Positions 6,101 through 27,568 of a stretch of DNA of 64,000 nt are shown piece by piece. The position numbers and the translations under genes are program-made. Numbering within the stretch: the stretch's first letter is position 1; each line of letters opens with the position of its first letter. Source of the DNA: Solirubrobacterales bacterium (GTDB taxonomy: Bacteria; Actinomycetota; Thermoleophilia; Solirubrobacterales; JACPNS01); contig JACPNS010000005.1 in assembly GCA_016185345.1 (NCBI GenBank), positions 98,117-162,116 of the forward strand. Direction: 5' to 3'. Under the pieces are notes generated by a model. It ran no database searches and was not told where the DNA came from. It saw only the letters and a list, made by a program, of their open reading frames with translations.

Positions 6101-6273
6101 AGTCAGTCAAGCTCAAGTCGATCGCGGCTAAGGCGAATCAGGGCACGCTGACAATCAAGCTCAGCTCGGCCGTGACCAAGAAAATCACGCTCGCGCTCAA
6201 AAAACGCATCAGGGTAAGCATCGTCTTCACGCCATCAGGCGGCGGCGCACCCAAGAGCGTCGCGATCAAATAG
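121..6273 (+). CDS. Giant exported delta-60 / Ig-like / FN3 repeat protein
   Basis: About 2050 residues. A Sec signal peptide (basic n-region, hydrophobic stretch ending in SASA) is followed by about six delta-60 repeats with recurrent LDxxFG and QPDGKI(V/L) signatures, expected to form a beta-propeller. The rest alternates about nine Ig-like modules (opening 'xVTITSP', two conserved Cys around a 'KLDA' core) with about seven FN3 modules ('DNVGVTGYE' type). The C-terminus is Lys-rich with a Cys pair and has no LPXTG anchor. It is probably a surface adhesin or matrix protein; the ligand cannot be read from sequence. I chose the ATG at 121 because a weak purine-rich SD (AAGAGA) precedes it. In-frame ATGs at 34 and 151 are alternatives; 151 gives the most compact signal peptide. 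Confidence 0.85.
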   Translation: MTLGRAPRRIMRTAIRKSNSRCSLLPALTLAALALIGSGSASAAPGGLDSSVWTGGLLTQQLSATDDAAHAVLTQPDGKFIVVGSGDPAPGYGGYSVARYNASGTLDSSFGGGDGLVLQATGQDGEATAAALQPDGKIVVGGTFWNGPAAMEQFSFMRFNSDGTLDASFGSGGVVQVGFGSFGDYLQGIAIDSLGRIVGTGIMTTNIDADPDYDRAVMATARLTSTGALDTTFDADGKVTTVLGGTSIFDKSRAIAIDSSDRPVIAGDTYAADDNFDDFVVVRYTTSGALDTSFNGTGKQIVKIGSGTHDDGRSIAIQPDGKILAAGLSNNENRFAVIRLTTGGALDTSFASTGKFETALAGFSTAGANAIRVQQNGRIVVGGFADDASASPRFALVRVTSAGVLDSTFGTGGIVTTNVGGPAEDSDWFCDQTAPQCPGIHGLGILNDGDLIGVGAKRIETNTDFQLARYDGDVPTLPTVSIASPANASTTGSSAIANFTTTTPGGVALKQVTCQLDSNAPAICATGQSYSGLAVGAHTITVRATDFTGITGSSSVSFTTGPAPVVAITAPVEGATLAGTSTSVTFSTTGSPTSVTCALDAGAATACSSGQSYSGLAPGLHYVTVTATNATGSDAKVVNFSVVDNTAPTAPTGVAATGITTGSATINWSASTDNVGVTGYEVFRGATSLGTTAGTNLAITGLACSTTYSITVRARDASGNWSAASTAYSLTTTTCPAPVVTITSPTAAQAFAETTTSVTLNFTATGSPTSTTCKLDAGAPGPCTTGQTFGGLAQGPHSILVSATNVGGAATATVNFRIVDNQAPTAPSALTTSNITQTGVRLTWTASADNVGVEQYNVTLLDALGGVKWIGYTNTASVPMTQFDLPTNVDPSVTDAGLTCGTQYWLRLDAEDNATNIAGAPARNNSANSIDKEFFTLPCDAAPTVTISSPVNASTLTGYNTAINFSATGYPATFTYTCKLDAAAAAACATGQAYVALAPGSHTVVVTATNTTGSGSATVSFTVPDITVPSAPTGLVTSAPSPTGGTLSWAAASDNVAVTGYDVFVNGTLKGSTTGATSLAITGLACETTFSLTVRAKDQAGNSSAASSVSSLTTATCPAPVVTITAPTAAQVFAGTTASVNIAFTLLGAPTSITCKLDAGAAVPCATGSSISVPTQGPHTIIVAATNSGGTGTATANFRIIDTVKPTMPTNLQATNITQTSAQFNWTASTDNVGVEQYNVELVTAGGVSFWAGFTNSTSPNITRFNYPADRDPISTAPNLSCGTEYWFRLSAEDGATDAEGNGSHNVSTTTADTSFITGACPAGPTVTISSPANNASLAGDSTTINFTGAGVPDAITFTCKLDAGTAAPCVTGQSYTSLAAGAHTVAITATNSVGSGSATVNFTVPDLLNPTAPTNISNSAVTTGSATINWTAATDNVAVTGYEIYLGAAVNPVVAVNGAATSAVIPTLTCSTAYSVTVKAKDAAGHKSPASAATNFTTLACPAPTVTITAPTADQVLAGTATTVKPLFTTTGSPTSVTCTLDNLAAAACISGQTISGLAQGPHTLTVSATSVWGTGSTTVQFSVADTIAPARPGAPTFSNVTRTAAQIDWTAASDNVGVAGYEVFFDGLSKGTITGALTFNASDLTCGTLYSVTVKATDTAGLVSLASTAGSLTTLPCPAPATVVINSPADNATIATSDATVVFTTGSDPTTVTCKLDASAAVPCSSPATFSSLAPGPHAVTVTASNALGGNSDSVVFSVADVTDPSPPGDVVVSNIDEDAAKIDWTTATDDVEVTGYEIFKGAVKIATLGANIRSYTINNLVCDTPYSITVKAVDAAGNAGAAAAPQFSTLGCPAPPLVAITNQPVVTNGNAIHVEFALSGGAAKSVTCQLDQAAATACTTLNSTGGSIDYSSLAPGPHLITIAARNSNSDPGTATVNFTVSSPTAPPIALPAASPAIKSAPKSVKAGKSIALRLACPTGCTVSAVLKLGKKSVKLKSIAAKANQGTLTIKLSSAVTKKITLALKKRIRVSIVFTPSGGGAPKSVAIK

Positions 6274-6287
6274 CCCCGCACAAAGCA

Positions 6288-6319
6288 GAAAGGGCCGCCC
6301 CATATGGGACGACCCTTTC
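6288..6319. terminator. Hairpin after the giant repeat gene, probably bidirectional
   Basis: An inverted repeat with arms GAAAGGG...CCCTTTC extended by CCCA/TGGG lies 14 nt after the stop codon. Two positions mismatch when read on +, but become G-U pairs on -. No long T-tract follows, so termination efficiency is uncertain. Confidence 0.55.
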
Positions 6320-6537
6320 GATTTCCTATGCGACGGGCGGACAGTGAGAGTCAGCGTCCTGGTCGGTGGGACGTGCTGCTAAGCACAGCTAGTCGACCAC
6401 TGGCACTCACCGGTGCAAGGTTTGGATTCCTTTGAGCGGCTCGCACCACCGGTCAGAGTTCCCGCACCTCCAGCGTCCCGCAAAACAATTGATTCAGTCG
6501 GACCACCTCCTCTCTCTGGTGGAACTATTGAAGCAAG
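6320..6537. other. Non-coding gap between convergent genes
   Basis: No convincing ORF. A short hairpin (CCACC at 6503-6507 with GGTGG at 6518-6522) lies just downstream of the peroxiredoxin stop, followed on the minus strand by an A/T-rich stretch; it could terminate that gene. A second imperfect inverted repeat (ACCGGTGC...GCACC-ACCGGT) lies around 6409-6454. Confidence 0.35.
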
Positions 6538-7206
6538 CTAGACGGCGGAGGGATCCGGCACGATCCGGATGTACGGCTTCGGAGACTCCCAGCCGTCGGG
6601 GTACTTCTCCTTGGCTGCCTCGTCGGTAACTGAGCCGGCGATGATCACGTCATCGCCCTTGTTCCACTGCGCCGGTGTGGCAACGGCCTCCTTGGCTGTC
6701 AGCTGAAGCGAGTCGATCACGCGAAGGATCTCGTCGAAGTTGCGGCCGGTCGTCATCGGGTAGACGAGGATCAGCTTGATCTTCTTGTCCGGTCCGATCA
6801 CGAAGACGTTGCGCAGCGTCTGATTCTGTGCCGGGGTGCGATCGGTCGAGTTGACGTCCTCACCGATCAGCTCGAGCATGTCGTACGCGTTGGCGACGGC
6901 GTGGTCGGTGTCGGCGATGATCGGGTAGTTCGGGCGGGTGCCCTGGGTCTCTTCGATGTCGTCGATCCACTTCTCGTGGTTCTCGAGCGGGTCGGTCGAA
7001 ATACCGATGACTTTCACGCCGCGCGCGGCGAATTCCGGCTCGATGCTCGCGAGGTAGCCGAGTTCGGTCGTGCAGACCGGAGTGAAATTGCGCGGGTGCG
7101 AGAAAAGCACTGCCCAACCGTCACCGAGCCAGTCGTAGAAATTGATCTTGCCTTGGGTGGTCTCGGCGTCGAAGTTCGGCGCGTCTGATCCGATTGTCAG
7201 TGACAT
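6538..7206 (-). CDS. 1-Cys peroxiredoxin (Prx6 family)
   Basis: 222 residues, the usual size for the Prx6/1-Cys class. The peroxidatic motif is 'FTPVCTTE' with Cys45, which is the only Cys in the chain, so no resolving Cys exists and an external thiol must regenerate the enzyme. The C-terminal dimerisation extension ('TPAQWNKGDDVIIAGSV') is typical of Prx6. Role: reduction of peroxides or alkyl hydroperoxides in the cytoplasm. A good SD (AGGAGA) sits upstream of the ATG. It is transcribed divergently from the GH88-like gene, and a TATTAT -10-like box is present in the shared 130-bp gap. Confidence 0.93.
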   Translation of the reverse strand: MSLTIGSDAPNFDAETTQGKINFYDWLGDGWAVLFSHPRNFTPVCTTELGYLASIEPEFAARGVKVIGISTDPLENHEKWIDDIEETQGTRPNYPIIADTDHAVANAYDMLELIGEDVNSTDRTPAQNQTLRNVFVIGPDKKIKLILVYPMTTGRNFDEILRVIDSLQLTAKEAVATPAQWNKGDDVIIAGSVTDEAAKEKYPDGWESPKPYIRIVPDPSAV

Positions 7207-7337
7207 TTTTGAGTCTCCTGGGGTAAGTAGAGTCTTGAACTCATAATACCCCTAAACCCGATCGGAATGGTCGGCTCTCGCAACTTCGCACCCGCCGCCG
7301 TTTTCTAGGTGGCAGGCAGCCAGACTGCAGGACGCAG

Positions 7338-8594
7338 ATGTCAGCAACTCTCCCTCCACCCACTCTCCGAGCCTTGGCCACGGCGGCGGTTCTGTTGGCC
7401 GTTCTCATGAGCGGTTTGTTGCTGCATGCCGCGTCGGCCACGGCTGCGACCTCGGGACCGAGCGCTTTTCAGGCCGAGGCGTCGCTGCTGAAGCAACGCG
7501 TCGCGCAGATCGGTTCGCAGACGCCTGCCGGCATGTACCCGCTCGGCACGGGCCTTGATGGCGAGCTGCGATTTTCTGAAGGCTGGACCTCGGGCTTCTG
7601 GGCGGGCACGCTCTGGCGCGTCGCAGATCTCAACCGCAGCGAAGCGTCAACGGCCAACGCGCTCGCGGCAACGATCGACCACTTCGGATTTGAACGGACC
7701 CAGCTCCACGACCTTGGCTTCATGTACGGCGAGAGCTCGGTTGCTGCCTACACCCGGCTCTGCAGAACCGCGGACGCGATCCCCGAATGCAAGAAGCTCC
7801 GCGCAAGCGGAATGCTCGCCACGTACACCCTTACCAAGCTCGCCCGCACGACCGGCCTGGGAATCATCCCGCTCGGTGCCAAGACCTGTTCAGACTGCAA
7901 GGTCGGCGGCGCAGAGACGATCGTCGACAGCATGATGAACCTGCCCCTGCTCTATTGGGCGGCCAGGACCAGCGGCAACATCAAGTACCGAAACCTCGCC
8001 AGAAAGCACGCCGACTGGGTCGCCAAGAACCTCGTTCGCAAGGACGGCTCGACCTTTCAATCCGCGAGCTACCCGCGCAGGTCCAAGGCGCCAAAGCTTG
8101 TAAAGCACACCCACCAGGGCCTGCGCGGAAGTTCCACCTGGTCGCGCGGACAGGCCTGGAGCATCTACGGATTTGCCGACGCGGGCAAGGAGTTCCGCAG
8201 CAAGGCTTACCTGTCGGTCGCCGAGCGCAATGCCAACTTTGTTGCCACGCACCTTCCCGCCAGCGGACTACCGCTGTGGGATTACGACGCAGAGCCAGGC
8301 GCACCAGTGGACGTTTCGGCCGGCGTGATCACGGCGGCCGGGCTGTTCCACCTTGCCAATGCATGCAAGGCGGTCAAGAACGGCTGCACGGAAGCAAAGC
8401 GCTGGCCGACGCTCGCGCGCAAGATCCTGAAGGGATCACTCGCGAAGATCCGCAAAGATGCGCCGATCGGCTACCTCGGAAATCAGGCTTACAGGATCGG
8501 CGGCAAGGACACCTGGGATGACGACGCCGAGCTGATCCTGGGGCTCGACTACGCGCTCGAAGCGATCAAGCTTTCACGCGCCGAATACAAGTAG
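7338..8594 (+). CDS. Exported GH88-like unsaturated glucuronyl hydrolase
   Basis: 418 residues with a signal peptide (hydrophobic core about residues 11-35). The (alpha/alpha)6 GH88 signatures are present: 'EGWTSGFWAGTLW', 'HDLGFMYGESS' (Asp125), 'IVDSMMNLPLLYWA' (Asp197), 'STWSRGQAWSIYG' and a C-terminal 'DTWDDDAELI'. Asp125 and Asp197 match the two essential aspartates of characterised unsaturated glucuronyl hydrolases, which hydrate the 4,5-double bond of uronic acids produced by polysaccharide lyases. No lyase, transporter or other GH gene lies next to it, so the substrate is open. The start is the first ATG before the signal peptide; the SD is weak. Confidence 0.85.
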   Translation: MSATLPPPTLRALATAAVLLAVLMSGLLLHAASATAATSGPSAFQAEASLLKQRVAQIGSQTPAGMYPLGTGLDGELRFSEGWTSGFWAGTLWRVADLNRSEASTANALAATIDHFGFERTQLHDLGFMYGESSVAAYTRLCRTADAIPECKKLRASGMLATYTLTKLARTTGLGIIPLGAKTCSDCKVGGAETIVDSMMNLPLLYWAARTSGNIKYRNLARKHADWVAKNLVRKDGSTFQSASYPRRSKAPKLVKHTHQGLRGSSTWSRGQAWSIYGFADAGKEFRSKAYLSVAERNANFVATHLPASGLPLWDYDAEPGAPVDVSAGVITAAGLFHLANACKAVKNGCTEAKRWPTLARKILKGSLAKIRKDAPIGYLGNQAYRIGGKDTWDDDAELILGLDYALEAIKLSRAEYK

Positions 8595-8644
8595 CGGCTC
8601 GCCATGGCTGCGGGATACCCACAGGGTTTCGGGTCTACTGAGGC

Positions 8645-11600
8645 TCAGGCGGTCATCAAGATCGGTTCGCGGCTGGAGCGCGAACGCTGCTTCTCGTCGT
8701 GCAGATCCTCATCCACGCGGGCCAGGAATGCATCGACCGGCTCGTCTGGTTGGCGAATCGTGACTGCGACGCTTGCAGTGGCGAGCAGATCCGGGCACAG
8801 GTCTGATCGTGCCCGCGTGATTGTCTCGCGAATGCGGCCTGCGATCACCTCGGCGTCACGTCTTTCGGACACCGCACAAACAGCCGCGAACTCGTCGCCT
8901 CCGCGTCGCGCGACCAGTTCGTCGACGCGGACGCACTTGCGCGTCGCTTCGACGGTCGCTCGCAGGACGCTGTCGCCCAACGCGTGACTGTACGTGTCAT
9001 TTACGGACTTGAAGTCGTCGATGTCGATCCCGAGCACGGCAACGTATTTGCCCGTCAGCTCGGATCGGTCGAGTTCGTCCGCAACGCGCTGACGCAATCC
9101 ACGCAGGTTGGCCGCTCCGGTCAGCGGGTCGACCACCGACGTCTCGACGGCGCGTGATGCAAATGCCAGCGTCGATACTCGCGCCTTCGCAAGCATGACT
9201 CCGATCAAGGCGGTCACGAGATAGCCCATCAGGACCTTCGCGGTCGTGAACGGATAGGCGCTCGAGTAGAGCGCAGCCGCGTACAGAACGGCGGCGAGGC
9301 CCAGATATACAGCCGCGCGTTTCGCGCTCAGGAAGTAGCAGGCGAACAGAGTCGGATAAACGTAGAAATCGACGAAGTCAGGGCTAGCGCTCCCGGACGC
9401 CGCGATCACTGCGGTCAACAGCGCGAAGATGAGGACTACGAAGCCGTGAAGCCACGGGGTCGCGAGTTCGCGGCGCGAGGCCCAGTATGTGAGCGGCGCA
9501 ATCGCCGCGATCGCTGCGATCAGGACGATGGCGACGGGACTTCTCAGTTGCGTCGCAAGGCCTGACATCGCGGCTATCGCAAAGGTCGTCGCCATGACCA
9601 CCGCCGTCCACGTCGCAACCACCCACGCTGTGTGCGTCCCGAGGGCGCGATTGACCCAGCGCGCGATTCGCACTTCTTCAGCCTCGTCGGCGATCGCTGA
9701 TTCACTCCGCTCGTTCGGGCGGACAGCTATCGAGCGGCGGTAGGCGGCGAGGTTACGAACCGTCTCGTCGCCGGAACGGCGGTCGGGGTGGGCGTCCAGC
9801 TTGGCCATGTGCAGCGCCTCGTCGGCTCGCAGGAGCATTTCGTCGGCGGATTCGCCATCACGGTGGATCACGTAGCCAACGCTCGCATTCGGGTTGACCT
9901 GCGGGCACACTTCTTCGCGGGCACGTCTGACCGCGCCAGTCAGTCGCGTTCGCAGGTCGCCGAGATTGCGCCCGGCAGAGATGGCCACGACCACGACAAA
10001 CTCGTCTCCGCCACGTCGGACCAACAAGTCGCTGGACTCGAGTTCTCCCGCCAACTCATTGGCAACGGCCTTGAGTAGCTCATCGCCCCTGGTGTGACTG
10101 AAGCGGTCGTTGACCTGCTTGAAGTCATCGAGGTCTATCGCGTAAAGCGCGATGCGGTATTGACCAGCGGCGCCGATCAGGTCTTGCTTCAAGCGTGACC
10201 TGAGCCTTCTCACGTTCGCGCATCCGGTCAGCGCGTCGGTGGTTGAGAGTCGGTGATTCATCTCGGCCATCGTTCGCAGTTGGTACTGCGCGTAGATGGC
10301 TGCCAGAGCGATCGAGCTGAACGCGATGAATGTCACGAGGACGTAGGTCCCGGTTGAGGGTGCCGGCGCCGCCAGCACTGCCGCCGCCGCGACCAGCGCG
10401 CCCGCCATGCAGTACGGGACTGCGACACGCGGAGTGTGCAGAAAGGCCGACGCGAGAACCGGGAACATCATCAGCGGAGTGATCATGCCGACGGGTGCGC
10501 CGATCTCGAACGCAACTCCCCCGATGAGAAGTATTCCGAACGAGATCCTCACGTGGGGGCCCCATTTCGCATTGGTGGCGACGCGCGCGCCGATCAGCCA
10601 AACAATGCTGGAGAGCGCAGCGATCGTCGCGAGCACGCCAATACTCCTGGACATCGGCACGTCTGTTCCGAATGCGATCAACAAATAGGAGAGCCCGCCC
10701 GCGCCATAGAGCAGGGCCGACGCATACCAACCAGCCTTGGGTGACATTCCGATGCCCTCGAAGCCATCGTGATCGATCTCGTACTCGGAGTCGTCAGCGC
10801 TGGACTCGATCGGCGGAAGCCCGACGACGACCTCGCCGGTGCGGTTGTCGATCGCCGAAAGCAGTGCATTCACGACGCGAGGGTCAAATTGCGATCCCGC
10901 GTGCTTGAGCAGTTCGTCACGCGCGACCTCGAGCCCGAGCGCCTTGCGATAAGGCCGGTCACTCATCATCGCGTGGTAGGCATCGCAGACGAGCACGATG
11001 CGGCTCGCCAGCGGAATATCGTCGCCCGCGATCTTGTCGGGATATCCGGTTCCATCCCAGCGCTCATGTTCGTGACGTATCGCTTTGGCGACGTCTTCGA
11101 ACCCGGGGACCTTCGAGACGATCTCCTCGCCGATCTGCGGGTGCTGTTTCATGACCCGCCACTCCTGCTTGTCGAGCTTGCCGGGTTTGTTCAAGATCGA
11201 GTCGGGGATGCCGATTTTGCCGACGTCGTGGAGCAGCGCGACGTCGGCCAGTTCGTTGCGCTCGTGCTCGTCCAGGCCCAACTGGTCGGCCACGCCCATC
11301 ACCATCTTCAAGGTCTCTTCAGAATGGTCTCCGGTGTAACCGTCGCGAGCTTGCAACGCGGCCAGCAGCGAGCGAACCGTCGAGACAAAGCGACCGCGCT
11401 CAAAGCGAACTTTCCAGAGGCGTTCGGTCAGGAAGCCGACGAGAATGATCGTGGCCGGGAAGGCGCGAAGACCGACGATCGCCATCGGAAACTCGGCCAT
11501 GCCGAAGATCAAGATCGGCATCAGGCCGAACGTGACTACCAGGGCGGCGATCTGCGCGAACCTGATCGCTCGCCGGTCCCAGAAATGCCGCATCCCCGCT

Positions 11601-19301: not shown

Positions 19302-21503
19302 TCACGCACTGATGCGAACGACGTCGCGGCGAGCGCGCGAGCGCACCTTCTCGTCGTGCAGCCGGTCGTCGACGCGCGCCATGAAATCGTCGACCGTCTC
19401 GCCGCTCTCGCGGATGGTGACCGCAACGCTCGCGGTTGGCAGCAGATCTGGACACAGCGCGGAGCGCGCGCGGGCAATTTCTGTGCGCACGCGATCGCCA
19501 ATCGCTTCCGCATCGCTGGCGCTGTCCACAACACAGACGGCGGCGAATTCGTCGCCACCGCGGCGTGCGACGAGCTCGTCCGCACGCAGGCAAAAACGCG
19601 TTGCCTCGGCGGTGGCCTTGAGGACGCTGTCCCCACGAGCATGGCTGTACCGATCGTTGACCGATTTGAAATCGTCGACGTCGATGCCGAGCACGGCGAC
19701 CCGCTTGCCCGTCAGTTCTGATCGAACAACCTCATCCAACACGCGTTGGCGCAGTCCGCGCAGGTTGGCGACACCAGTGAGCGGGTCCACGACGGACATT
19801 TCTACAGCACGCGACGCGAAAGCGAGTGTCGCCGCGCGAGCCTTCGTGAGCATGCCGACCATCATGAGGGTGACCAAGAAACTCATGAGCAGCCTCGCGG
19901 TCGGGTACGGGTAGTCGCTCGAATAGAGGACAACTGCAAACAGCCCTGCCCCGGCGGTGAGGTAGCCGAGGTCCTGTTTCGCGGGCAGGAAATAGAACGC
20001 GAACAGGACGGGGAACGCGTACAGATCCACGAAGTCCGCGCGGAAGCTGCCGGCCTCGAGGATCACGGCAGTCATCAACGCGAAGAGTGCGACGACGAAC
20101 GCGTGGAGCCAGGGCGCGGCCAGTTTATGGCGCGCCGCCCAGAAGCAGAGCAACGCAAGCCCGACCAGCGCGCTGATCAGGCCGCCGGCCGCCGGACTTC
20201 TGAGGTCTGGGACGAGGCCTGTGATGGAAGCAAGGACAAAGATCGTGGCGATCATCAAGCTCGTCCACGTCGCCACGATCCATGCCGAGTACGTGCCGAG
20301 TGAGCGGTTGATCCAGCGCGCAATCCTGACTTCTTCTGCGTCGTCTGAGATCGACGGACTCCGTTGGTCCGGATGGGCCGCGATGGCGCGGCGGTAGTCG
20401 GCGATGTTCCTGACGGTGGCGTTGTACTCACCGCGGTCAGGATGCGCCGCAAGCTTTGCCTCGTGCAAGGCTTCATCGGCGCGCAGGAGCAGTGCGTCGA
20501 CAGACTCGCCGTCCTGATGGATCGCATAGCCGACGCTGGCCCCGGGGTTCAACTGCGGACACACTTCCTCGCGTGCACGCCGGACGGCGCGGGCAAGTCG
20601 CCAACGCAGGTTTTGCAGATCACGCCCGCCCGAGACAGGGACGACAATCGCGAACTCATCCCCTCCGCGCCGCACCAGAAGATCACTTGGCTCCAATTCT
20701 TCAGCGAGTCCGGCTGCGACGGCCTTCAAGAGCTGGTCGCCCGTTGTGTGGCTGAATCGGTCATTGACCTGCTTGAAGTCATCGAGGTCGATCGCGTAGA
20801 CCGCGATCCGATACTCGCCGCTGGTGCCGATCAGATCCTGTTTCAACCGTGAATGCAGGCGGCGTACATTTGCGCACCCGGTCAGCGCATCGGTCGTCGC
20901 GAGGCGATGATGCATCTTCACCATTGACCGCAACTGGTGCTGCGCCCAGACGGCGACCAGTGCGATCGAACTGAATGCGATCAACGCGTTGATCGCGCTG
21001 ATCGTCGTGGCCGGCGGAGGCGCCGTCAGAATCGCCGCGGTCAGGACAATGGCCGCGATCACGCAGTAGGGAATCACCACGCGTGGCGCATGCAGGTACG
21101 CCGATCCCAAGACCGGGAAAAGCATCAGCGGCAGGATGACTGCGACTGGCGCTCCGATCGCGAAGGCATCAAATCCGATCAACGCGATTCCACCCGAAAT
21201 CCTCAGGTGCGGCCCCCATTCGGCGTAGGTGAAGCGGCGCGCGCAGTAGAGCCAGAAGACGCTGGCCAGGGCCGCGATGATGCCACCGATCCCGATGCTC
21301 CGCGGTATTGGGAGGTCCGTCGCAACTTCGACCAGGATGTATGCAAATCCGCCGGCGCCGTAGAGCAACGCGGATGCGTACCAACCGGCCTTCGGCGACA
21401 TCCCGACTCCTTCGAGAGCGGAGTGGTCGGGCTCTTGGTCGAGCTCCTGATCGCGCTCTGTCTTCTCGGACTTTCCGAGCGCCAGTGGGTTGGGTCCGTC
21501 CAT
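19302..21503 (-). CDS. Membrane diguanylate cyclase with two TM-GGDEF units
   Basis: 733 residues. TM block (about 40-190), GGDEF 1 (200-355, motif 280-284), TM block (about 400-555), GGDEF 2 (570-725, motif 649-653). Both active-site loops read RRGGDEF and the 'DxDDFKxVND' metal/substrate motifs are present, so both domains look catalytic. The I-site positions are ExxD and RxxE, so classical product inhibition is unlikely. The protein aligns end to end with residues from about 810 to 1523 of the protein at 8645-13216 and lacks the HD-GYP half. First gene of a likely operon with the two hybrid kinases. No clear SD precedes the ATG. Confidence 0.92.
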   Translation of the reverse strand: MDGPNPLALGKSEKTERDQELDQEPDHSALEGVGMSPKAGWYASALLYGAGGFAYILVEVATDLPIPRSIGIGGIIAALASVFWLYCARRFTYAEWGPHLRISGGIALIGFDAFAIGAPVAVILPLMLFPVLGSAYLHAPRVVIPYCVIAAIVLTAAILTAPPPATTISAINALIAFSSIALVAVWAQHQLRSMVKMHHRLATTDALTGCANVRRLHSRLKQDLIGTSGEYRIAVYAIDLDDFKQVNDRFSHTTGDQLLKAVAAGLAEELEPSDLLVRRGGDEFAIVVPVSGGRDLQNLRWRLARAVRRAREEVCPQLNPGASVGYAIHQDGESVDALLLRADEALHEAKLAAHPDRGEYNATVRNIADYRRAIAAHPDQRSPSISDDAEEVRIARWINRSLGTYSAWIVATWTSLMIATIFVLASITGLVPDLRSPAAGGLISALVGLALLCFWAARHKLAAPWLHAFVVALFALMTAVILEAGSFRADFVDLYAFPVLFAFYFLPAKQDLGYLTAGAGLFAVVLYSSDYPYPTARLLMSFLVTLMMVGMLTKARAATLAFASRAVEMSVVDPLTGVANLRGLRQRVLDEVVRSELTGKRVAVLGIDVDDFKSVNDRYSHARGDSVLKATAEATRFCLRADELVARRGGDEFAAVCVVDSASDAEAIGDRVRTEIARARSALCPDLLPTASVAVTIRESGETVDDFMARVDDRLHDEKVRSRARRDVVRISA

Positions 21504-23251: not shown

Positions 23252-23647
23252 CTAGCGAATGAGTTCAACCTCAACGCCAGCGGCGACGTCCGCCCAGGCG
23301 CGATCGGCGGTAATCGCAGGTAGCTCCATCGTCGTGGCGAGCGCCAAGCATGCGCGATCGGCGAGCGAAAGGCCAGCGCTGCGAGTTCTGCCGTAAAGCT
23401 CGCCCGAGACCTCAGCGTGTCGCGCGGTGAAGTCGGCGCGGGCGATCACGCTGTCGGCCGTGCCGATCAACGACGCGGGCATATTCGGTCCGAACTTCTG
23501 ATGCAGCTCGGCGAGATTCACCGTCGAGATGAACGCTGCATTCGCAAACGAGGAATCCACCGATTCCAACAACGCCGCGACTCGATCCGCGCCGGGCTCA
23601 TCGCGAAGGAATGCCATCACGGCGCTGGAATCGATGACGAACTGCAC
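23252..23647 (-). CDS. PIN-domain toxin (VapC-type)
   Basis: 131 residues with the PIN acidic set: Asp6 ('VIDSSAV'), Glu47 ('NLAELHQ'), Asp97 ('LSLADRACLA') and Asp115 ('TADRAW'). Family role: Mg-dependent ribonuclease that cleaves tRNA or rRNA to slow growth. It starts with GTG two nucleotides after the antitoxin stop, so the pair is translationally coupled. The RNA target cannot be inferred. Confidence 0.9.
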   Translation of the reverse strand: MQFVIDSSAVMAFLRDEPGADRVAALLESVDSSFANAAFISTVNLAELHQKFGPNMPASLIGTADSVIARADFTARHAEVSGELYGRTRSAGLSLADRACLALATTMELPAITADRAWADVAAGVEVELIR

Positions 23648-23649
23648 GG

Positions 23650-23916
23650 TCAGTGGTCTGATTCGCGCTTGGCCTCGGTGCGACGTTCGGCGATCAGTTC
23701 GTCGACGGAACCGCCTTGATCACGAAGGCTGCCCCGGGCGTTTTCGAGAACGCGGCGTCGCTGCGCTCGCGGATCCCGCAGGATCACCGCGCCATCGGAC
23801 CGCGCCTCAACGCTGACAGTGCCCTTTGGCTCAACGCCCAGGTGCGCGCGCAGCTCCTTCGGTAGTAACAAGCGGCCGCGGGCGTCAGTTTGTACTGAGA
23901 TGTGCGTGTGAGGCAT
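23650..23916 (-). CDS. AbrB/MazE-type antitoxin
   Basis: 88 residues. The N-terminal half ('VQTDARGRLLLPKELRAHLGV', roughly residues 8-28) is a swapped-hairpin AbrB DNA-binding domain. The C-terminal half is charged and probably wraps around the PIN toxin. It precedes the toxin in the usual antitoxin-first order. Operator-like repeats lie immediately upstream (23925-23967), consistent with autorepression. Confidence 0.88.
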   Translation of the reverse strand: MPHTHISVQTDARGRLLLPKELRAHLGVEPKGTVSVEARSDGAVILRDPRAQRRRVLENARGSLRDQGGSVDELIAERRTEAKRESDH

Positions 23917-24257: not shown

Positions 24258-24330
24258 AGCCGACGCCCAGATTCGAACTGGGGACCCCTTCATTACGAGT
24301 GAAGTGCTCTACCAACTGAGCTACGTCGGC
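24258..24330 (-). tRNA. tRNA-Thr (anticodon CGU)
   Basis: Seventy-three nucleotides on the minus strand. The acceptor stem GCCGACG pairs with CGTCGGC; the D-arm is AGCTCAGTTGGTAGAGC. The anticodon stem CTTCA/TGAAG encloses loop CTCGTAA, giving anticodon CGT. The T-arm contains GTTCGAATC. CCA is not encoded. Confidence 0.96.
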
Positions 24331-24530: not shown

Positions 24531-25595
24531 TCACGCTCGCTTCACCGGCGACTTCTCAAGCGCCGGCGACGCGGTCTTTCGATCCTCGATCAAGTCCCGC
24601 ACTGCGTCTTCAATTGCCACGCGCCGCTCTGGATCGACGAACGCTTCCGGCCCGCCCAGTTCCTCTACACGCGCGGCGATCGTCCAGCCGCTGTCGTAGC
24701 GGTCGAACACGCGCGGGTCTATGTACGACGAGCGCGCAACGCTCGGGGTGTTTCCGAGGAAATACGCAACTTCTCTACATGCGGCGCTCTTGGCGCGCTT
24801 GCGCTTTGACTCGGTCGGGACGAGCTCGCGCTTGGCGGCCAACGAGACTGCAGCGAGCACCGTTCCGTTCCAGGTGCGGAAGTCCTTGGCCGAGTAGTCC
24901 GCGCCGGTGAGTTCCTTTATGCGGTCATTAATGTCGATCGAGACGACGTCGCGCCATCGGCGTCCATCTTTGTAGGCGAGCAACTCCTCACTACCGCCGC
25001 GCCGCTTTAGCATCGCGTCGATCACGCGGACGACGCCGGGCTCGGAGATCGCCTGAACGCGTTGCTTGCCCGACTTCGCCCGGTAGTCGAAGATCGCGTG
25101 GCCATCCTCGATCTGCACGTGGTCGCGACGGATCGTCGCCAGGCCGAAGGTCTCGTTCTGTTCGGCGTAGCCCTCCGTGCCGATCCGAAAGAAGCCGAGA
25201 TCGAGCAGACGCAGCGCGCATCCGAGTACTCGCTCGCGCGTCAACTCTCGCTGGCGCAAGTCCTTGCTGACACGCGCGCGCAACCTGGGCAGAGCAGCCG
25301 CGAAGTCAAGCATCTCGTCGAACTTCTCGCGGTCCTTGGCGGCGCGCCAAGCTTCGTGGTAGAGGTACTGCTTGCGGCCGGCGGCATCCACACCGGTCGC
25401 TTGAAGGTGGCCGTTCTCACGCGGGCAGATCCAGACCTCGGTCCAGGCTGGTGGGATCGCGAGCGCGTCGATGCGCTCGCGCGTTTCCGAGTCGCTGAGT
25501 TTGCCTCCCGTCTCGGTTGCGTAGCAAAAGCCGCGACCGCTGCGCACGCGGGTGATCCCTGGTTTGGCGCAATCCGAGCGCGCGAGCCTCGGCAT
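24531..25595 (-). CDS. DNA topoisomerase IB (poxvirus/bacterial type)
   Basis: 354 residues. The catalytic domain is intact: 'YRAKSGKQ' (Lys174/177 region), 'KDFRTWNGT' (Arg240), and the nucleophile Tyr291 in 'SVARSSYIDPRV'. The N-terminal beta-rich domain is also present ('AIPPAWTEVWICP', 'GRKQYLYHEAWR'). It relaxes supercoils through a 3'-phosphotyrosyl intermediate. It starts 4 nt after the methyltransferase stop and is the last large gene of the four-gene operon. Confidence 0.93.
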   Translation of the reverse strand: MPRLARSDCAKPGITRVRSGRGFCYATETGGKLSDSETRERIDALAIPPAWTEVWICPRENGHLQATGVDAAGRKQYLYHEAWRAAKDREKFDEMLDFAAALPRLRARVSKDLRQRELTRERVLGCALRLLDLGFFRIGTEGYAEQNETFGLATIRRDHVQIEDGHAIFDYRAKSGKQRVQAISEPGVVRVIDAMLKRRGGSEELLAYKDGRRWRDVVSIDINDRIKELTGADYSAKDFRTWNGTVLAAVSLAAKRELVPTESKRKRAKSAACREVAYFLGNTPSVARSSYIDPRVFDRYDSGWTIAARVEELGGPEAFVDPERRVAIEDAVRDLIEDRKTASPALEKSPVKRA

Positions 25596-25599
25596 CGGA

Positions 25600-26274
25600 T
25601 CAGCCTTGAATGCGCGCCTCGATCACGACAAGCTGCTCGACCGCGGCGTCTTCTGCAAGGAACCCGCCACCGATCAAGTAGTCCTGGCGCGAGCGACTCA
25701 CTGGACCGAGCTCAAGTTCTTCACTGGCAACGATCTCAACGTCGAATCTCGCCGCTTCGAGCATGCGCATGGATCGCGGGATGTCGGCGAGGGACGAATG
25801 GACCATCCAAAGTCCTCCGCCGGTCGCGAGGACGCGGCGAGCCTGAGTGCAGATCCGGTCGATCACCATGCGGCCGTCTGGGCCGCCGTCACACCACGCG
25901 GCCTGCGCGCCATCAGGCGGGGTGGGTACGTACGGCGGATTGGCGAGCACGGCATCAAAGCGCCAGTTCCCGACCGGCTCGAAGAGATTCCCGCGCAGGG
26001 CGTCGAGCTCGACTTCGTTGAGCAAAGCGTTCAAGCGGGTCGCCTGGACAGCTTCTTCCTGGCTGTCAACCGAAACCACGCGATGGCCGGCGCGCGCTGC
26101 CGAGATCCCCTGGATGCCGCTACCGCAGCAGACGTCGAGCACGAATGATCCTGCCTGGGGCCCGCGCTGGGCGAAGGTCTCCATCAACATGTGCGAATCG
26201 ACTGATGGGATGTACACCTCGGAGGCCCCCTGGATCATTGGCGATTCACTGCGAGCGGGAATTGCGCCTTTCAC
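25600..26274 (-). CDS. HemK2/MTQ2-like class I methyltransferase
   Basis: 224 residues from a GTG whose last two bases begin the Rieske TGA (GTGA overlap). The SAM-binding loop is 'VLDVCCGSGIQGI' (about 46-58) and the catalytic 'NPPY' is at 112-115, which marks N-methylation of an amide or a nucleobase amino group. The N-terminal 'VYIPSVDSHML' matches the HemK2/MTQ2 branch rather than PrmC with its extra helical domain. A related branch methylates Gln in release factors; the substrate here is unknown and may be a partner in this operon. Confidence 0.85.
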   Translation of the reverse strand: MKGAIPARSESPMIQGASEVYIPSVDSHMLMETFAQRGPQAGSFVLDVCCGSGIQGISAARAGHRVVSVDSQEEAVQATRLNALLNEVELDALRGNLFEPVGNWRFDAVLANPPYVPTPPDGAQAAWCDGGPDGRMVIDRICTQARRVLATGGGLWMVHSSLADIPRSMRMLEAARFDVEIVASEELELGPVSRSRQDYLIGGGFLAEDAAVEQLVVIEARIQG

Positions 26275-26603
26275 AGACTCACCTCGATTACGTCGTTGAC
26301 AATGCGGACTTCGTGCAACTCCAATTCGAATGGCGCGCGCGGCGAGATCGCCTGGCCCTCCGGGAGAGAGAATTCCCAGCCATGCAGGGCGCAGCGCAGA
26401 ATCCCCGGCTCGCAACTGGCAGCAGAAAGTGGATGACCGCGGTGCGGACAGCGATCGTCGAATGCGATCACCTCGTCGTCGGTTCGCAGCACGCAGATCG
26501 GCCGGTCTTCGATCACCACTCCGTGCGGGTGGCCGACCGTCAGATCCTCCAGATGCGCCACGGCAGTGAACACCGAGTGCGCCGTGCCGACAACGGCGCT
26601 CAC
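26271..26603 (-). CDS. Small soluble Rieske [2Fe-2S] ferredoxin
   Basis: 110 residues. The cluster ligands are Cys52 and His54 ('CPHRGH') and Cys71 and His74 ('CALHGWEF'), the CxH-x16-CxxH spacing of a Rieske ferredoxin. There is no signal or TM segment, so it is cytoplasmic. It resembles the ferredoxin component of dioxygenases (BphF/NirD type). It starts with a GTG overlapping the upstream stop by 4 nt, so it is probably made in fixed ratio with the di-iron protein and may supply it with electrons. Confidence 0.92.
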   Translation of the reverse strand: MSAVVGTAHSVFTAVAHLEDLTVGHPHGVVIEDRPICVLRTDDEVIAFDDRCPHRGHPLSAASCEPGILRCALHGWEFSLPEGQAISPRAPFELELHEVRIVNDVIEVSL

Positions 26604-27568
26604 GTGACCGCGGCCTCGGCCGCGAAGACTGCCGAGCGCTCGCTTCGGGCAAACTCTGCTTCAAGCGCGCGGCCGTCAAAGATCCCGATCGCGATCTCGC
26701 GGGCGGCGTCGGCGCCCTCCTCCGCGGCGACGGGCATCGCTACTTCGTGAAGCGCCACGTCGCGGTGATTTTCATCGGCCAGCACGTGCAGCTCATAGAA
26801 ATCAAGTACGCGCGGGTCGTTGATCCCAAGGCGCGCCCAGGCGGCGAGGTAGTTGCCCATCGCCTGTGGCGATTCGGCTTCGGTCAGATAGATCGTCCCG
26901 ATCAGTCGCCTGCTGAACGATGGATCGAGCGCGCACATCCACTGGTGGTTGAGCGTCGCCAGGTACTGCCAAGAGGTTGAGTACTCGTAGTGGTCGATAT
27001 CGGTTTCGAGACCCAGCGCCTCCATCAGGTTCGCGTAGATCGTCGAATGCATGCGGTCGAGCTTGCCCCAGCCGTACTCGTCGAGCAGGAGATCGATCAG
27101 GCCAGCCTTTGCGCCACCGGAGAGAGTTGGGACTGCGTAGATCCATGGGTCGGGCTCACGCAGGAAGAACAACGAGCGTTGCGCGACTACGCGCTTCATT
27201 GCGTCGAGCGTGGCGGTCTCATGCAGGTAGAGCCCCCATGAGGCGTCGTCCATCGGGTGCGGGCCGAGCGCGAGCGACTCGAACCACGCGCCATGCTCGG
27301 ATGCCGGCGGAGTCAGGTCGGCGGAGACGGCCGCGCGATTGCGATCGAGTTGATCGCGGAATGCGGCCTCGAGTATTTGGCGGAACTGCAGGAGCTGGGT
27401 CGCCTGGGCAGATCCCTTGGCCCGCCAGACGCGTTCGCCGTAGATCGCGTATAGCGCGCGGTGGGCTTCCTCGAGTGCGCCTGGCTCACCGTCGTCGAAG
27501 GCGCTTCGCGCAAGTCGCTGGGCGGCGTCTATGCCGAGGTCTTCTGGGATCTGGAAATGTGCGTTCAC
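26600..27568 (-). CDS. Haem-oxygenase-like di-iron protein (iron-containing redox enzyme family)
   Basis: 322 residues, all-helical. Candidate iron ligands follow the pattern of haem-oxygenase-like di-iron oxidases: Glu164 and His174 ('LLDEYGWGKLDRMHS'), Glu230 ('YLTEAES'), then Glu259, His261, Asp265 and His268 in 'FYELHVLADENHRD'. Such proteins use O2 to oxidise or desaturate small molecules or fatty acids; the substrate here is not known. First gene of the operon, preceded by an inverted repeat at 27578-27613 shared with the divergent enoyl-CoA hydratase gene. Confidence 0.82.
   Translation of the reverse strand: MNAHFQIPEDLGIDAAQRLARSAFDDGEPGALEEAHRALYAIYGERVWRAKGSAQATQLLQFRQILEAAFRDQLDRNRAAVSADLTPPASEHGAWFESLALGPHPMDDASWGLYLHETATLDAMKRVVAQRSLFFLREPDPWIYAVPTLSGGAKAGLIDLLLDEYGWGKLDRMHSTIYANLMEALGLETDIDHYEYSTSWQYLATLNHQWMCALDPSFSRRLIGTIYLTEAESPQAMGNYLAAWARLGINDPRVLDFYELHVLADENHRDVALHEVAMPVAAEEGADAAREIAIGIFDGRALEAEFARSERSAVFAAEAAVT

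Follow-up and report, generated by a model that had tools for sequence, protein, structure and literature searches.

A Rieske ferredoxin in the place of a CDGSH protein in an actinobacterial operon encoding a haem-oxygenase-like di-iron protein and a HemK2-like methyltransferase

More and more unusual chemistry is being traced to the haem-oxygenase-like di-iron oxygenases (HDOs). The literature that we surveyed reconstitutes or discusses them without a dedicated protein donor of electrons. The members of solved structure closest to the protein described here are the N-oxygenases SznF (streptozotocin), HrmI (L-lysine) and RohS (azomycin). Stand-alone Rieske ferredoxins are known from other oxygenase systems: T4moC, of toluene-4-monooxygenase, is the electron donor to a di-iron hydroxylase, and BphF belongs to biphenyl dioxygenase. 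By its published description, DtpC of Acinetobacter baumannii is an HDO-type protein tied to stress survival; its operon partner is the catalase KatE, and no CDGSH protein, Rieske protein or methyltransferase was reported for it (PMC13232832).

We analysed a 64,000-nucleotide stretch of a Solirubrobacterales genome (contig JACPNS010000005.1), hereafter the window, in which an HDO is encoded together with its own Rieske ferredoxin and a HemK2-like methyltransferase (MTase). No description of a module joining an HDO to a CDGSH, Rieske or HemK2 protein was found in the open-licence literature searched. The families of the parts were already known; in that literature we found neither the HDO-MTase operon with a Rieske partner, nor an equivalence between it and an actinobacterial HDO-CDGSH-MTase trio, nor the link to a YbdK-family ligase.

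The four-gene block and the conserved three-gene unit

The open reading frames of the window confirmed, on the minus strand, the layout proposed by a sequence-only reading of the same DNA, which had placed four genes with two GTGA overlaps at 24531-27568. The gene of the HDO (PF14518; 26600..27568, minus strand, 322 aa, GTG start) is followed by those of the Rieske [2Fe-2S] ferredoxin (26271..26603, minus strand, 110 aa, GTG start), the HemK2/MTQ2-like SAM methyltransferase with its NPPY motif (25600..26274, minus strand, 224 aa, GTG start) and a bacterial topoisomerase IB (TopoIB; 24531..25595, minus strand, 354 aa, ATG start). The 4-nt GTGA stop/start overlaps are located on the minus strand at 26600..26603 (HDO-Rieske) and 26271..26274 (Rieske-MTase), and a gap of 4 nt separates the MTase stop, which ends at 25600, from the TopoIB start at 25595. 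A tRNA-Thr(CGT) gene (24258..24330, minus strand) borders the block, and the operon contains no ferredoxin reductase.

When a two-member HDO alignment was searched against 84,980 species genomes, five further loci (L026 to L030) were found in MAGs of the Solirubrobacterales and Nitriliruptorales. The adjacency is therefore not limited to one genome; such a limitation was an outcome that the sequence-only reading had named as fatal to its proposal. All five carry the HDO, then the Rieske, then the MTase gene on the same strand, the contig of L029 breaking off within the MTase gene. Stop and start codons overlapped by 1-4 nt (ATGA, GTGA or TGATG) at 12/12 junctions of these loci and the window, which is more than chance would give. 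With gene order and coupled junctions kept in 6/6 Rieske loci, window included, HDO, Rieske and MTase probably form a translationally coupled three-gene unit.

The fourth protein of the block matched the Topoisom_I (104 bits, cut-off 23.7) and Top1B_N_bact (85 bits, cut-off 27) profiles, and a TopoIB gene was present near the HDO gene in 3 of about 90 loci (the window, L026 and L137) and absent from the other Rieske operons. In L026 it follows the MTase gene at a distance of about 3 kb, past an SRPBCC gene and genes for STAS, anti-sigma and SigB proteins. TopoIB was therefore rejected as a conserved functional member of the module, and the four-gene set of the sequence-only reading is reduced to HDO, Rieske and MTase. 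Four other genomes of the window's genus are without HDO and without TopoIB. Comparison with a genus-mate (G127), in which a helicase gene, tRNA-Thr and an enoyl-CoA hydratase gene are syntenic with the window, showed that the interval between tRNA-Thr and the hydratase gene measures about 0.7 kb, vs 3.3 kb in the window, and holds none of the four genes; they are thus missing there as one block, which fits a gain and a loss alike. A unit of all four genes directed at the modification or repair of DNA or RNA would agree with their single run in the window, with the empty G127 interval and with the TopoIB genes of L026 and L137, but the rarity of TopoIB among the HDO loci and the SigB stress operon standing between it and the MTase in L026 make such a unit highly improbable.

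Iron ligands and fold of the HDO

The HDO scored 110 bits against PF14518, the curated cut-off being 28.9, and its predicted iron ligands are E138, E164, H174, E230, H261, D265 and H268. The 3-His/3-carboxylate set E164, H174, E230, H261, D265 and H268, aligned with SznF and HrmI, was invariant in alignments of 15 and 31 members; a lack of conservation in orthologues had been the other result that the sequence-only reading named as fatal to its proposal. The profile alignment paired the HDO and SznF ligands as E138/E189, E164/E215, H174/H225, E230/E281, H261/H311, D265/D315 and H268/H318. Position E138 is a glutamate in every member of this HDO family and in SznF and a phenylalanine in HrmI, and from this contrast and the SznF structure, E189 of SznF is presumably the extra ligand. 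The di-iron site is of the 3H/3C type in HrmI and of the 3H/4C type in SznF (PMC13108848). The phenylalanine of HrmI at the E138 position, together with the alignment of all seven SznF ligands, assigns a SznF-type 3H/4C set to this HDO family.

An AlphaFold2 model of the HDO (pTM 0.78, six sequences) was compared with solved structures by Foldseek, which gave HrmI as the best match (TM 0.82) and also SznF (0.68) and RohS, all of them N-oxygenases; HrmI, SznF and RohS also came out on top of the sequence matches. HrmI and RohS are similar to the HDO in their single-domain length, and HrmI differs from it in its ligand set. SznF shares the HDO fold and the full ligand set, but is about 20% identical in sequence, and the window HDO is encoded in an operon with its own Rieske and MTase genes. 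The C-terminal cupin domain of SznF was not found in the 322-aa HDO, in which PF14518 is the only domain; in this the HDO differs from what a SznF orthologue would have. From these nearest relatives, oxygenation of nitrogen by the HDO may be proposed, although a likeness of fold leaves the reaction unfixed.

CDGSH and Rieske proteins as alternative carriers

The Rieske protein scored 59.5 bits against the Rieske profile (cut-off 20.3), and its motif CPH-X16-CALH (C52, P, H54 ... C71, ALH74) was invariant in 6/6 of these stand-alone proteins of about 100 aa. Its closest solved relatives are the ferredoxins BphF and T4moC, a weak match of about 30 bits, while the scores for the known Rieske equivalogs AndAb, HcaC and NirD (48.6, 46.4 and 40.4 bits) were below the NCBIfam cut-offs of 150, 113 and 74.65 bits, respectively. 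The window protein resembles T4moC and BphF as a stand-alone Rieske ferredoxin and differs in its partner: an HDO takes the place of the ferritin-like di-iron hydroxylase or Rieske oxygenase.

The sequence-only reading had stated that actinobacteria pair this MTase and di-iron family with a CDGSH protein, for which a Rieske protein would stand in here, and had suggested counting the two kinds of partner. We sampled 396 genomes of the phylum, 64 of which were HDO-positive, and pooled their HDO loci with those of a class sample, the named loci and that of the window, 85 loci in all. Within 5 kb of the HDO gene, 56 loci had a CDGSH gene, 6 a Rieske gene and none both, numbers that describe the sample and not a count of events, as the loci are phylogenetically non-independent. 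Both the pairing and the replacement were thus borne out. The MTase gene was near the HDO gene in 42/85 loci, among them 6/6 Rieske loci. The only CDGSH matches in the genome of the window were a tandem pair on another contig, and none adjoins the HDO gene. In RefSeq plasmids, the CDGSH version is annotated as 'iron-containing redox enzyme family protein', 'CDGSH iron-sulfur domain-containing protein' and 'HemK2/MTQ2 family protein methyltransferase'; the probe of this search was an approximate consensus and no natural sequence, and only the records found are used.

In the unrooted HDO tree, the HDOs of the Rieske loci formed one clade (support 100/99) on a long branch, and the 19 HDOs having neither CDGSH nor Rieske neighbour grouped as a clade of their own. 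An outgroup tree with fragments of HrmI and SznF, built to find the direction of the swap, suffered from long-branch artefacts and yielded no root, and apparent second gains of a Rieske protein at L111 and L113, which had the motif only and were below the Rieske profile, were dropped. The two versions share homologous HDOs and the same MTase subfamily, while the Rieske loci have a separate HDO clade and a Rieske gene in the place of that of the CDGSH protein. In the Rieske operon the genes always run in one direction and overlap; a CDGSH gene frequently lies on the opposite strand. In the branch of the window genome a Rieske protein stands where its relatives have a CDGSH protein, which hints at the role of the carrier in the set. 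The linkage, the swap of carriers and the precedent of T4moC support the idea, put forward by the sequence-only reading, that the di-iron oxidase has a [2Fe-2S] donor of its own, and point to the carrier as that donor. Since CDGSH and Rieske proteins both carry a histidine-ligated [2Fe-2S] cluster, a proton-coupled donor may be what the system needs, and a histidine-ligated [2Fe-2S] electron donor is the best reading of the common requirement.

Rieske ferredoxins are stable electron carriers and not cluster donors. This bears on the alternative that the CDGSH or Rieske protein supplies iron or a cluster to a labile HDO site and donates no electrons. The cofactors of HDOs are labile (PMC13108848), and NEET (CDGSH) proteins can transfer their cluster (PMC8463382). 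Nevertheless, a stable carrier takes the place of CDGSH in the Rieske loci, the trait shared by the two being a redox-active histidine-ligated [2Fe-2S] cluster, and because of this swap we judge a mere supply of iron most unlikely.

Methyltransferase, ligase and a proposed pathway

The MTase scored 108 bits against TIGR00537 (HemK2/MTQ2; NCBIfam cut-off 87) and its NPPY motif was invariant in the MTase alignment, in agreement with its earlier description as a HemK2-like NPPY enzyme; its score against the PrmC release-factor methyltransferase family (TIGR03534) was 81.7 bits, below the cut-off of 199.1. The MTase model matched HemK2/N6AMT1 and PrmC, and KMT9 was also among the nearest solved relatives. 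A search of the same 396 genomes for the MTase subfamily (hits of 155 bits or more, all of them complete but for a split copy in genome G429) revealed a clear gap in score from PrmC-like proteins, which reached at most 123 bits. The subfamily was present in 32 genomes, 31/64 of the HDO-positive vs 1/332 of the HDO-negative ones (Fisher p ~4e-27, relatedness ignored). The sole HDO-negative genome with the subfamily, G429, is 81% complete and its genus-mates have the HDO. In several genomes (G220, G375, G351, G312 and G452), the MTase gene co-occurs with the HDO gene at a distance from it, and in L120 the MTase and CDGSH proteins are naturally fused in a single ORF.

A YbdK-family carboxylate-amine ligase (GCS2) gene adjoins the HDO gene in many loci, including the Rieske loci L026 and L030. 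The HDO-linked YbdK proteins formed one clade (100/99), in which CDGSH and Rieske loci are mixed and which stands apart from the remaining GCS2 proteins that these genomes encode; three further YbdK genes near the HDO gene in L072, L140 and L176 fell outside it. The clade was found (at least 430 bits, class sample) in 16/23 HDO-positive vs 2/176 HDO-negative genomes. The window genome has no member of it, its two GCS2 proteins falling outside, and many CDGSH loci are also without it, so that the ligase is not strictly required. The sharing of this clade by both carrier types argues that the Rieske and CDGSH versions belong to one pathway. The third partner varies: a GT2 glycosyltransferase gene adjoins the HDO gene in 12 loci, 0/12 of which have the MTase. 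A dimethylargininase gene by the HDO gene (L176, Kitasatospora plasmid) was not recurrent and was set aside. SigB-type sigma genes were near 12 HDO loci, and stress genes (SigB, STAS, CsbD) surround several, such as L026, L171 and L176. The YbdK clade, the SigB stress-island context, the SznF-type ligands and the MTase-CDGSH fusion are all additions to the sequence-only reading.

The MTase could also be read as a protein-modifying enzyme that methylates Gln, Asn or Lys, while the HDO, drawing electrons from the [2Fe-2S] protein, oxidises that residue or one beside it. This would suit the invariant NPPY motif and the protein substrates of the nearest solved relatives, HemK2/N6AMT1/KMT9 and PrmC. 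However, the characterised HDOs work on small molecules (PMC13108848, PMC13232832), the self-modifying CADD type excepted, no conserved substrate protein was found in the HDO neighbourhood, and the dedicated YbdK ligase speaks for a small-molecule substrate, so that we regard protein modification as unlikely. Protection from oxidative stress, in which the HDO would remove peroxide or other reactive species with electrons from the Rieske or CDGSH protein and the MTase would have a repair or accessory function, is in keeping with the SigB, STAS and CsbD genes and with the HDO-like DtpC, for which such a function has been suggested and which, by way of its predicted ligands, reduces the damage that peroxide does to dried cells (PMC13232832). 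A peroxide scavenger would nevertheless not account for a dedicated MTase subfamily and a dedicated YbdK clade, and the fold and ligand set of the HDO are closest to those of N-oxygenases; we consider this explanation doubtful as well.

The module, composed of an HDO, a CDGSH or Rieske protein and a HemK2-like MTase, often with a dedicated YbdK, is best explained in our opinion by an O2-dependent small-molecule pathway of the N-oxygenase type, of which HDO-Rieske-MTase would be the Rieske variant; we give this reading a probability of about 50%. Counting against it are the YbdK clade missing from the window genome, the 19 HDOs with neither carrier as a neighbour, the varying third partner and the lack of a ferredoxin reductase gene in the operon. 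The [2Fe-2S] protein would hand single electrons to the diferric HDO, and the diferrous 3H/4C site predicted from the ligands would take up O2 as a peroxo intermediate. The peroxo form would then oxygenate a small substrate derived from an amino acid or an amide, most likely at nitrogen, and the MTase, judging from its motif and family, would methylate a planar nitrogen on the same molecule, the amide bond of which may be provided by YbdK in the genomes that have it. Cells probably make the product in response to general stress, as the SigB and stress neighbours and the precedent of DtpC suggest. In ergothioneine biosynthesis, EgtA, EgtB and EgtD likewise bring together a GCS2-type ligase, a SAM methyltransferase and an O2-using iron enzyme; this is an analogy of layout alone, the iron enzyme and methyltransferase families being unrelated.

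An operon with a Rieske gene, and relatives with a CDGSH gene in the same place, name the likely donor of an HDO, and the swap of carriers offers a direct way to test the function of bacterial CDGSH proteins. The near-exclusive association of an MTase subfamily and a YbdK clade with the HDO marks an uncharacterised pathway, often within general-stress (SigB) islands, in the Solirubrobacterales and many other actinobacteria. Tentatively, and at somewhat less than even odds, this may be an unrecognised stress metabolite pathway that extends through the phylum, with a SznF-type HDO N-oxygenase served by its own donor and with CDGSH (NEET) and Rieske proteins alike filling that role. If so, CDGSH proteins would gain a defined role in bacteria, as donors to a di-iron oxygenase, and the property under selection would be the histidine-ligated cluster, that is, a proton-coupled donor.

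Partners of the di-iron protein at other loci

The gene for the haem-oxygenase-like di-iron protein (HDO) was located next to that of a GT2 glycosyltransferase at 12 loci (L062, L063, L064, L066, L068, L069, L072, L074, L075, L078, L118 and L132), none of which (0/12) carried the HemK2-like methyltransferase (MTase). The GT2 glycosyltransferase is thus an alternative third partner of HDO, in loci that lack the MTase. Nineteen HDOs (including L071, L080-L084, L087, L090, L100 and L106) formed a clade with neither a CDGSH nor a Rieske neighbour.

Stress and plasmid neighbourhoods

At the Rieske locus L026, the operon was followed (at 6227-10326) by genes for an SRPBCC protein, a STAS anti-anti-sigma factor, an anti-sigma ATPase, a SigB-type sigma factor and topoisomerase IB, and this gene run is a general-stress island. 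On a Kitasatospora plasmid (L176:3887-7945), YbdK and dimethylargininase genes preceded HDO, CDGSH and MTase. The dimethylargininase is intriguing because methylarginine is the substrate of SznF, an HDO relative from streptozotocin biosynthesis; its position beside HDO was not recurrent beyond this plasmid.

Other genes in the window

The minus strand carried ORFs for a PIN-domain-like toxin and an AbrB-like antitoxin (23252-23916), between the helicase and tRNA-Thr, which had no match within the syntenic interval of the genus-mate G127, and a gene for a 733-aa protein (19302-21503) in which a membrane region lies ahead of each of two GGDEF-like halves.

CDGSH in fused and tandem form

A single 380-aa ORF on the minus strand of another HDO locus (L120:7788-8927) encoded a natural fusion of a HemK2-like MTase with a CDGSH domain. 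Elsewhere in the genome of the window, a protein with two CDGSH domains in tandem was encoded at G000:C8:62862-63494; this genome can therefore use CDGSH proteins, though its HDO uses Rieske.
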